Shown one piece after another: positions 8,037-10,148 of a stretch of 64,000 bases of DNA. This DNA is from Aureimonas phyllosphaerae. Lineage in GTDB: Bacteria; Pseudomonadota; Alphaproteobacteria; Rhizobiales; Rhizobiaceae. The notes below the pieces were generated by a model. That model was given only the letters and a program-made list of their open reading frames with translations. It was not told where the DNA came from and ran no database searches. Within the stretch, counting starts at the first letter, position 1. Each line of letters opens with the position of its first letter. The translations under genes and the position numbers were made by a program. Where the stretch lies: the NCBI RefSeq assembly GCF_900113065.1, contig NZ_FOOA01000008.1:124001-188000 (forward strand). Direction: 5' to 3'.

Positions 8037-10148
8037 TCAGTAGGGCGCGTCGACGCGGCCGAGATTGACGTAGACGCTCTTCGCCTGCGTATGCGCGAGG
8101 AGCGCGGCGCGCCCGTTCTCGCGCCCGAGGCCCGATTCCTTGGCACCGCCGAAGGGCAGCTCGATCGGCGTGATGTTGTAGGTGTTGATCCAGGTCGTGC
8201 CGGCCTCGAGCCGGGCGACGACGCGGTGGGCGCGCGCGAGGTCGCGCGTGAAGACGCCGGCGGCCAGCCCGAAGCGCGTGTCGTTGGCGCGCGCCACCAC
8301 CTCGTCCTCGCTCCGGAACGGGAGGACGGTCATCACCGGGCCGAAGATCTCCTCCCGCACGATCGTCATGTCGTCGCGGCACCCGTCGAAGATCGTCGGC
8401 TCGACGAAGTAGCCCCGGCCGAGCGCGCCGGCCGTCACCCGGTTGCCGCCGCACAGGAGCCGGGCGCCGCCGCGGCGGCCCTCCTCGATATAGGAGAGGA
8501 CCTTATTCATGTGCGTCTGCGAGATCAGCGCGCCGACCTGCGTCGCGGGATCGGCGGGATCGCCGACCACCATGGCGCGGGTGCGCGAGGCAAGCTTCTC
8601 GAGAAAGGCCTCACGCACGTCCTCGTGCACGAAGACGCGCGTGCCGTTGGAGCAGACCTCGCCGGCGGAATAGAAGTTGGCGAGCATCGCCCCGCCCACG
8701 GCGTCGTCGAGATCGGCGTCGGGGAAGACGATCAGCGGCGACTTGCCGCCGAGTTCCAGCGTCACCTGCTTCAGGGTGGTGGCGGCGTCCGCCATCACCT
8801 TCTTGCCGGTGCCGACCTCACCGGTCAGCGAGATCTTGGCGATGCCGGGATGGCGCGACAGGAGGCGCCCGGTGCGCCCGTCGCCTTGCAGGACGTTGAA
8901 GACACCGGGCGGCACGCCGCACTCGGTCATAACCTCGGCGAGCTTCAGGGCGGTCAGCGGCGTCAGCTCGGCCGGCTTGAAGATGAACGCGTTGCCGGCG
9001 GCGAGCGCCGGGGCGGCTTTCCAGCAGGCGATCTGCAGCGGATAGTTCCAGGCGCCGATGCCGGCGACGAGCCCCAGCGGCTCGCACCGGACATAGCCGA
9101 AGGCGGCGGGCCCGAGATCGACATGCTCGCCCGCGATGCCGGCGGCCAGCCCGGCGAAATACTCGATGCAGTCGGCGCCCGACAGGACGTCGACGGCGAT
9201 CGTCTCCTGGATCGGCTTGCCGGTATCGCGGGTTTCGAGAAGCGCCAGCTCCTCGTTGCGCTCGCGAAGCCGCATGGCGACGCGGTTGAGGATGCGGCCG
9301 CGCTCGGCCCCGGTCATCGCGCCCCACGTGCGCTGCGCCTCGCGGGCCGCCCTGACCGTCGCCTCCACCTCGGCCTCGCCGGCCATCGCGATCTCGGCGA
9401 TCGTCTCGCCGGTCGCGGGATTGACGGTCGCGAAGGTCTCGGTGCCCTCGCGCCAGGGGAGATAGGCGCCGGCGACATGGCTCGTCAGCACCGGGGCGTC
9501 GGCGGCGCGCGCCAGCGCCTTCGGCTGCCCTCCGGCGTGCGGCGGCCGCGCCTCGGCGATCTGCGCGTCGGTGAAGCTCGTGGCGATGGTGCGGGCGAGC
9601 ACACTGTCCGTCTCGCCGGCGTCCGACAGGGAGGAGCGCAGCCACAGGCCGTCGATCACGGCGGCGATCGCCACCGCGATGCGCGCGGCATCGTCGGCCG
9701 CCACCAGCACCTTGAGATCGTGGCGCAGGTTCGAGAGCATGCGCTGCTGGTAGACGCGCTGCACGCGCTTCAGCCGTGCGGAATGGAGGACCTGGCCCCA
9801 GAAGGCGAGCCATACGGACCCCGTGCGCCCGTCGAACTCTTCGGGCGCGAGATTGGCGTCGATCACGCTCTGGATGCGCTCGCGCGGCGTCTCGGCGCGC
9901 TTCAGCCGCCAGCGCGTGCCGTCCGAGACGCGCGAGGCGAGGTGACGCAGCGTCGCTTCGAGAAGCCCGTCCTTGTCGCCGAAGTAATGCGAGACGAGGG
10001 AGGGCGCGACGCCGGCGCGGCCCGCGATCTCCGACAGGCTGGCGGCGGCGAAGCCGACATCGGCCAGCGCCTCGATCGTCGCCTCGATCAGCTGCCGGCG
10101 CCGCTGGTCCTCGGAGCCGGAGCGGAGGGCGATGGAAAGGCGGGTCAT
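8037..10148 (-). CDS. betB: BetI-BetB fusion: TetR repressor joined to betaine aldehyde dehydrogenase
   Basis: One uninterrupted frame, 703 residues from the ATG at 10148 (GGAG 9 bases upstream). Residues 1-about 195 are a full BetI-like TetR repressor: [13 protein letters not shown], the helix-turn-helix [31 protein letters not shown] and the C-terminal [13 protein letters not shown] roughly 25-residue linker rich in Ala, Pro and Gly follows with no stop codon. Then a complete betaine aldehyde dehydrogenase begins ([12 protein letters not shown]). Its catalytic glutamate is E465 in ELGGKSPL and its cysteine is C499 in [10 protein letters not shown], 34 residues apart as in E. coli BetB. Normally betI and betB are separate neighbours. 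No ATG or GTG with a ribosome site exists at the junction, so separate translation of BetB is doubtful. A second ATG at 10196 overlaps an operator-like palindrome. Confidence 0.88.

Follow-up and report, generated by a model that had tools for sequence, protein, structure and literature searches.

BetI proteins (TIGR03384) are repressors that act as dimers and take choline as their signal, and betaine aldehyde dehydrogenases (BADH), such as BetB (NF009725), form tetramers and complete the conversion of choline to glycine betaine, a stress protectant. To our knowledge, fusions of a repressor to an enzyme of its pathway are few, and the known example that includes an aldehyde dehydrogenase (ALDH) is trifunctional PutA, in which an N-terminal DNA-binding domain, not of the TetR type, and a C-terminal ALDH domain belong to one protein. 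Passages of PMC9132996 describe PutA as a repressor of the proline utilization genes that includes a proline dehydrogenase domain as well. Among known systems PutA comes closest to the fusion described here, termed BetIB, which likewise has a DNA-binding domain at its N-terminus and an ALDH domain at its C-terminus but keeps a separate effector domain; the Pfam domains found in BetIB are TetR_N, TetR_C_6 and Aldedh alone, with no proline dehydrogenase domain among them. BetIB resembles BetI in possessing TetR_N and TetR_C_6, in passing the BetI equivalog cut-offs, in being preceded by a palindrome of the type of a mapped BetI box and in lying beside betA and choline transporter genes, but differs in that it runs on into BetB without a stop codon. 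It resembles BetB in containing a full ALDH with its catalytic residues, and differs in having a DNA-binding repressor at its N-terminus and in lacking an ATG near the old BetB start in 53 of 74 fusions.

The first-pass annotation, made from the letters of the DNA, knew of no description of such a fusion. None is reported in the titles and abstract openings listed in searches of the open-access literature, a corpus that omits most subscription papers and all preprints, and passages of PMC12442346, PMC7824335 and PMC9132996 do not mention one. BetIB adds to the regulator-enzyme fusions a member whose fusion is confirmed and conserved and whose function is predicted; it would be a second, independent case, with another DNA-binding fold and a separate effector domain.

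The fusion lies in a 64,000-nucleotide stretch of the Aureimonas phyllosphaerae genome (contig NZ_FOOA01000008.1, positions 124,001 to 188,000; here called the window), in which open reading frame analysis finds the minus-strand frame 10196..8037 to be stop-free over 719 codons. The initial description of a complete BetI, a linker and a complete BetB with no stop between them, encoding a joined product of about 75 kDa, agrees with the Pfam and NCBIfam matches and the catalytic residues, and the predicted product from ATG 10148 has 703 residues and a computed mass of 75.1 kDa. This ATG is the likely start because a GGAG lies 9 nt upstream, because 5 of the 19 fused genus relatives have a TGA between the position of the frame's first ATG and 10148, and because that earlier ATG sits within the palindrome at 10184-10201. 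In 719-residue numbering, Pfam places TetR_N at residues 36-81, the BetI-type TetR_C_6 at 104-213 and Aldedh at 248-708. Among the NCBIfam equivalogs, the fusion protein passes TIGR03384 (204.4 bits, cut-off 201.3) and NF001978 (196.5 bits, cut-off 118) for BetI and NF009725 (765.4 bits, cut-off 593) for BetB, and narrowly misses the other BetB equivalog, TIGR01804 (660.8, cut-off 668.6). The Asn, Lys, Glu and Cys that we take to be the catalytic set of a BetB-type dehydrogenase are all present (Table 1), and the remaining ALDH matches in the genome are at most 40% identical. The frame between choX and choV is labelled choW by position, and is presumably the transporter permease gene.

Table 1. 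Coordinates of betIB, its parts, its candidate operators and the adjoining choline genes in the window.
Feature	Position	Strand	Remarks
betA, choline dehydrogenase	6353..8020	-	next gene, same strand; TIGR01810 829.1 bits, cut-off 732.1
betIB fusion	8040..10148	-	703 codons, single open frame; stop codon 8037-8039; GGAG 9 nt 5' of ATG 10148
BetB half, betaine aldehyde dehydrogenase	8040..9455	-	Asn384, Lys407, Glu481, Cys515 (719-residue numbering); Pfam, NCBIfam
Linker between Pfam domains	9456..9551	-	varies among relatives; pLDDT <50 at residues 206-213 of 703
BetI half	9552..10148	-	TetR_N helix-turn-helix and BetI-type C-terminal domain; Pfam, NCBIfam equivalogs above cut-off
BetI-type palindrome	10184..10201	.	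14/14 consensus positions; 36-53 nt upstream of betIB ATG
BetI-type palindrome	10361..10378	.	13/14 consensus positions; 133 nt from choX start
choX, choline ABC transporter substrate-binding protein	10511..11458	+	divergent; TIGR03414 465 bits, cut-off 379.05
choW, putative choline transporter permease	11551..12411	+	open frame; label by position
choV, choline transporter ATPase	12408..13604	+	Pfam ABC_tran; choline assignment by position

The junction between BetI and BetB is open in 20 of 21 genomes of the genus Aureimonas, the window's own counted. The 19 fused genus relatives show 72-97% identity, and their linkers vary both in length and in sequence; the nearest named relative is Aureimonas sp. 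Leaf324 (97%, among the best 80 of at least 586 loci). One genome (G017) departs from the pattern: its betB belongs to another lineage (59%), and no BetI lies within the 1.5-kb flank. A search of 188 loci (L001, L009-L195) with BetI and BetB profiles gave 87 fused, 44 split in the same frame, 19 split in different frames and 38 without BetI in the flank. Once 17 duplicates and one short row (L115) had been dropped, 170 distinct loci were left, of which 74 were fused, including one with a partial BetI (L116) and one cut by a contig end (L100), 40 were split in the same frame, 18 were split in different frames and 38 were without BetI in the flank, this last class being weak because the flanks of genome-sample loci are just 1.5 kb. 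The proportion 74/170 does not represent a natural frequency, since some of the loci came from a ranking by similarity to the window, of which the best 80 of at least 586 were taken. The comparison among relatives that the first-pass annotation had suggested set an open junction in 74 fused loci against separate genes in 58 split ones, and the open junctions exclude the stop codon or frameshift near 9480-9560 that it had named as a possible flaw. The reading that an assembly or sequencing error deleted a stop or start is ruled out by these same counts, both within the genus (20 of 21 genomes) and across the distinct loci (74 of 170); no point was found in its favour, and we give it practically no credence.

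Names are attached to 47 of the 74 fused loci, and the fusions span Hyphomicrobiales, Acetobacterales, Caulobacterales, Sphingomonadales and gammaproteobacterial metagenome-assembled genomes (MAGs). The named loci include Aureimonas, Ancylobacter, Azorhizobium, Methylobrevis, Faunimonas, Bauldia, Kaistia and Acidisoma, together with Gluconacetobacter, Caulobacter, Sphingomonas, Novosphingobium, gammaproteobacterial MAGs including Steroidobacteraceae, and MAGs without closer names. At E<=1e-200, fused frames occur in at least 15 of 397 genomes of the order sample, at least 3 of 385 of the class sample and at least 4 of 398 of the phylum sample, one of these last (L191) being recognised by profile only; in the family sample (E<=1e-150) the figure is at least 3 of 199, all from the window's genus among the matches listed. 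These samples overlap (G000 is in every one) and the counts are lower bounds. Some candidates were rejected: the long open frames before betB in L031, L032, L154, L156, L158 and L159 are not fusions, BetI being in another frame or not found, and an Indioceanicola plasmid match is split, with two stops. In one MAG locus (L104) betI and betB lie in different frames and there is no ATG before betB, which may reflect a frameshift in the MAG.

Annotation can hide the fusion. In RefSeq, that of Komagataeibacter saccharivorans is a single 676-residue CDS under the name betB, and choline regulation can be missed in such species because the record names only the enzyme. In PMC7824335, Afifella marina is tabulated with betI beside betA and with betB elsewhere. 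The Afifella 'betI' may itself be a fusion annotated just as betI, as Faunimonas, from the same family, has the fusion.

Quick trees were built for BetI (131 rows) and BetB (170 rows). In the BetI tree, every one of the 73 fusions with sufficient BetI sequence groups in a single clade (SH-aLRT 94), together with 11 split rows, and the fused or split label changes 2 times, against a mean of 43 for shuffled labels. The BetB tree places 73 of 74 fusions in one 94-row clade that also holds 12 split rows and 9 without BetI, and the fused label changes 9 times, against a mean of 55 when shuffled. The outlier in the BetB tree, L095 from Novosphingobium BW1, is not rejected from the fusion clade in a careful 50-row tree (AU p 0.53), and a domain swap in this locus is unsupported by the same test. 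Because the 73 testable fusions share one BetI clade, the simplest history has a single ancient fusion that was seldom lost. Ten of the 11 split rows inside that clade form a clade of their own, and the eleventh is the MAG locus L104; in the clade of 10 the fusion may have been lost, or the clade may have branched off earlier. Two loci (L031, L032) have an Aureimonas-type betB of the fusion clade and no BetI found in the 1.5-kb flank, and one MAG locus (L106) has a fusion-clade betB with transporter genes but likewise no identified upstream BetI. All three have apparently lost the regulator half, and the genus genome G017 is a further case of loss.

Translation start signals bear on whether the two halves are made as one polypeptide. 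Codons in frame from -32 to +2 relative to the BetB profile start were searched, with Shine-Dalgarno-like stretches defined by a crude word list. An in-frame ATG occurs in 21/74 fusions, compared with 56/58 split loci, and an ATG with a Shine-Dalgarno-like stretch in 5/74 compared with 44/58; 16 of the 74 fusions have no ATG, GTG or TTG in this region. Internal initiation, or cleavage of the linker, would free BetB and yield two proteins in practice, and separate BetB could still be made in the five fusions that have both signals (L086, L087, L116, L146 and L147). None of these five is in Aureimonas, whose members have no internal start in common (none at all in L012, L016 and L027), and the window's own candidate is a GTG in the same frame, 17 codons upstream of where the BetB profile starts, which no Shine-Dalgarno-like stretch accompanies. 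Production of two proteins is thus quite unlikely. Because fusions have an ATG there far less often than split loci and Aureimonas shares no start, most BetB is probably produced within the fused protein. Several Ancylobacter and other Xanthobacteraceae have an ATG at about -20 that resembles the old start of BetB, and its persistence suggests that the stop codon of BetI was lost first and that the internal start faded afterwards.

The linker evolves more freely than the domains it joins. Its pooled dN/dS is 0.43 (14 pairs, 483 codons), against 0.02-0.18 in the domains, and single pairs range from 0 to 1.15; the values of 0.996 for the window and its closest relative and of 1.15 for one other pair indicate that selection on the linker itself is weak. 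The GC content of the linker by codon position (0.76, 0.69, 0.82) is weak evidence in either direction. An AlphaFold model, for which the input was the window protein and 66 of 69 fused sequences (L059, L022 and L023 were omitted as near-copies; L095, L100, L116 and L118 are outside the 69), folds both halves (mean pLDDT 85.8, pTM 0.69), with low confidence at residues 1-9, 206-213 in the linker, 663-665 and 675-687. Among the 60 of 98 PDB chains listed, no best-matching stretch starts before residue 221, so none spans both halves, and the best solved relatives of the BetB half among these matches are betaine aldehyde dehydrogenases.

Candidate operators were sought with an 18-bp palindromic motif, built from Aureimonas upstream regions and scored at 14 positions, with a match defined as at least 12. 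The palindrome first noticed at 10362-10377 was borne out, and a better match was found at 10184-10201; these two are the sole matches in the window. At least one palindrome is present in 72/73 fused loci (130 sites with overlaps counted, 0.28 expected from single-base shuffles) and in 58/58 split loci (97 sites, 0.86 expected from single-base shuffles); the fused locus without one is L116, with its partial BetI, and L085 was left out because its upstream DNA is too short. Within the window's genome, motifs with at most one mismatch occur at four places, and a reversed control gave none. A third good genomic palindrome (L211:1501-1518; G000:C17:136323-136340) is flanked by frames labelled by eye as lysine 2,3-aminomutase-like (416-1465) and NUDIX hydrolase-like (1628-2203). 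The mapped BetI1 box of Ruegeria pomeroyi is a perfect ATTGACG/CGTCAAT palindrome, as given in a passage of PMC12442346, and because the palindromes resemble it the fused BetI half should bind DNA as BetI does.

Two separated sites are more frequent in fused than in split loci, at 70/72 compared with 32/58 for a threshold of 10, 58/72 compared with 12/58 for 11 and 44/72 compared with 7/58 for 12; among loci with a divergent choX the figures at threshold 11 are 49/54 and 8/32. No link between fusion and two operators is claimed, since 5 of the 10 loci in the closest split clade have two as well and the comparison comprises just 2 independent pairs. Spacing between operators in 58 fused loci gives no signal of 10.5-bp phasing (p 0.67); at 10.0 bp and 11.0 bp the values are p 0.045 and p <0.001, becoming 0.26 and 0.09 when only unique spacings are used, and DNA looping between the operators through helical phasing is not supported by the spacing.

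We consider it probable that BetIB is one two-headed protein, a choline-responsive repressor of betIB-betA and choXWV joined to a working BADH. From what is established for the two families, the N-terminal half would act as a TetR-type repressor on the two palindromes that separate betIB-betA from the divergent choXWV and shut off both sets of genes, choline would release it from the DNA, and the C-terminal half would oxidise betaine aldehyde. Fusion would make repressor and enzyme equimolar, in a fixed ratio, and the repressor would ride on the enzyme oligomer, a BADH-type tetramer with two BetI dimers; autorepression together with repression of choXWV would be expected. It is also possible, and we hold this tentatively, that the two halves behave no differently from unlinked BetI and BetB, and that joining them is neutral or only balances expression. 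Such independence is consistent with the variable linker and its low model confidence, with the retention by BetI of its own C-terminal domain and with the same kind of palindromes in fused and split loci, whereas the persistence of the fusion through deep divergence with few losses speaks against it, as does one relative whose frame is kept although its enzyme half looks dead. By analogy with PutA, in which a DNA-binding domain is joined to an ALDH-bearing catabolic enzyme (PMC9132996), betaine aldehyde or NAD bound to the BADH half might alter DNA binding by the BetI half, so that the operon would read flux besides choline; however, no sequence feature was found that points to coupling, BetI has kept its own C-terminal effector domain, and the relative just mentioned keeps its BetI half, operators and transporter genes without the catalytic Asn, the catalytic Cys and the NAD loop, all of which make this trigger-enzyme reading, raised in the first-pass annotation, improbable.

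That relative is Kaistia granuli, the fusion of which (L118:4956-6995; identical in BetB to L160 of genome G530) has a frame open over 679 codons. Of the 153 columns on which 67 other fusions all agree, its BetB half deviates at 53 (12 through deletion), and any other fusion row left out in turn deviates at 3 or fewer; the BetI half deviates at 0 of 22 invariant columns. Of its four catalytic residues, the BetB half has lost Asn and Cys, together with the NAD loop, and kept Lys and Glu; across the set, Asn and Cys are retained in 73/74 fusions and Lys and Glu in 74/74. Six internal deletions are all in frame, although this depends on the alignment, and the lineage has accumulated 113 residue changes in BetB compared with 11 in its sister, against 9 compared with 1 in BetI. 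Were all changes neutral, 3.4-5.0 stops would be expected, with a probability of none of 0.007-0.03, and about 2 if half were neutral; there is moderate support for the reading frame having been kept. The genome has no close betA (best BetA match 45%), its next ALDHs are at most 43% identical, and it keeps choX, choV and two palindromes; in the congeners G587 and G455 a betA at 72% and 70% lies less than 200 nt from the fusion. Survival of the BetI half and operators after the loss of Asn and Cys argues that regulation does not strictly require catalysis. The simplest reading of this one assembly is a repressor of transporter genes that would keep a dead dehydrogenase as a scaffold; alternatively, the BetB half may have decayed recently or taken on another role. 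A broader proposal, which we regard as rather doubtful, is that BetIB is a bivalent repressor, the dehydrogenase half scaffolding two BetI dimers on the two betIB-choXWV operators, and that this structural role alone kept the dead half of Kaistia granuli in frame once that species had lost betA and the active site.

Whether such a fusion serves coupling, dosage or oligomer geometry is a question made directly testable by BetIB, for which split relatives can serve as controls and nature provides a case in which catalysis has apparently been lost and the regulator kept. Also near the bet cluster of the window are a regulator with DJ-1/PfpI and AraC-type domains (4819-5877, plus strand) and a DUF1810 protein (5861-6343, plus strand). 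A 733-codon open frame runs antisense to the entire fusion (8091-10292, plus strand) and is probably a by-product of high GC content and codon use.
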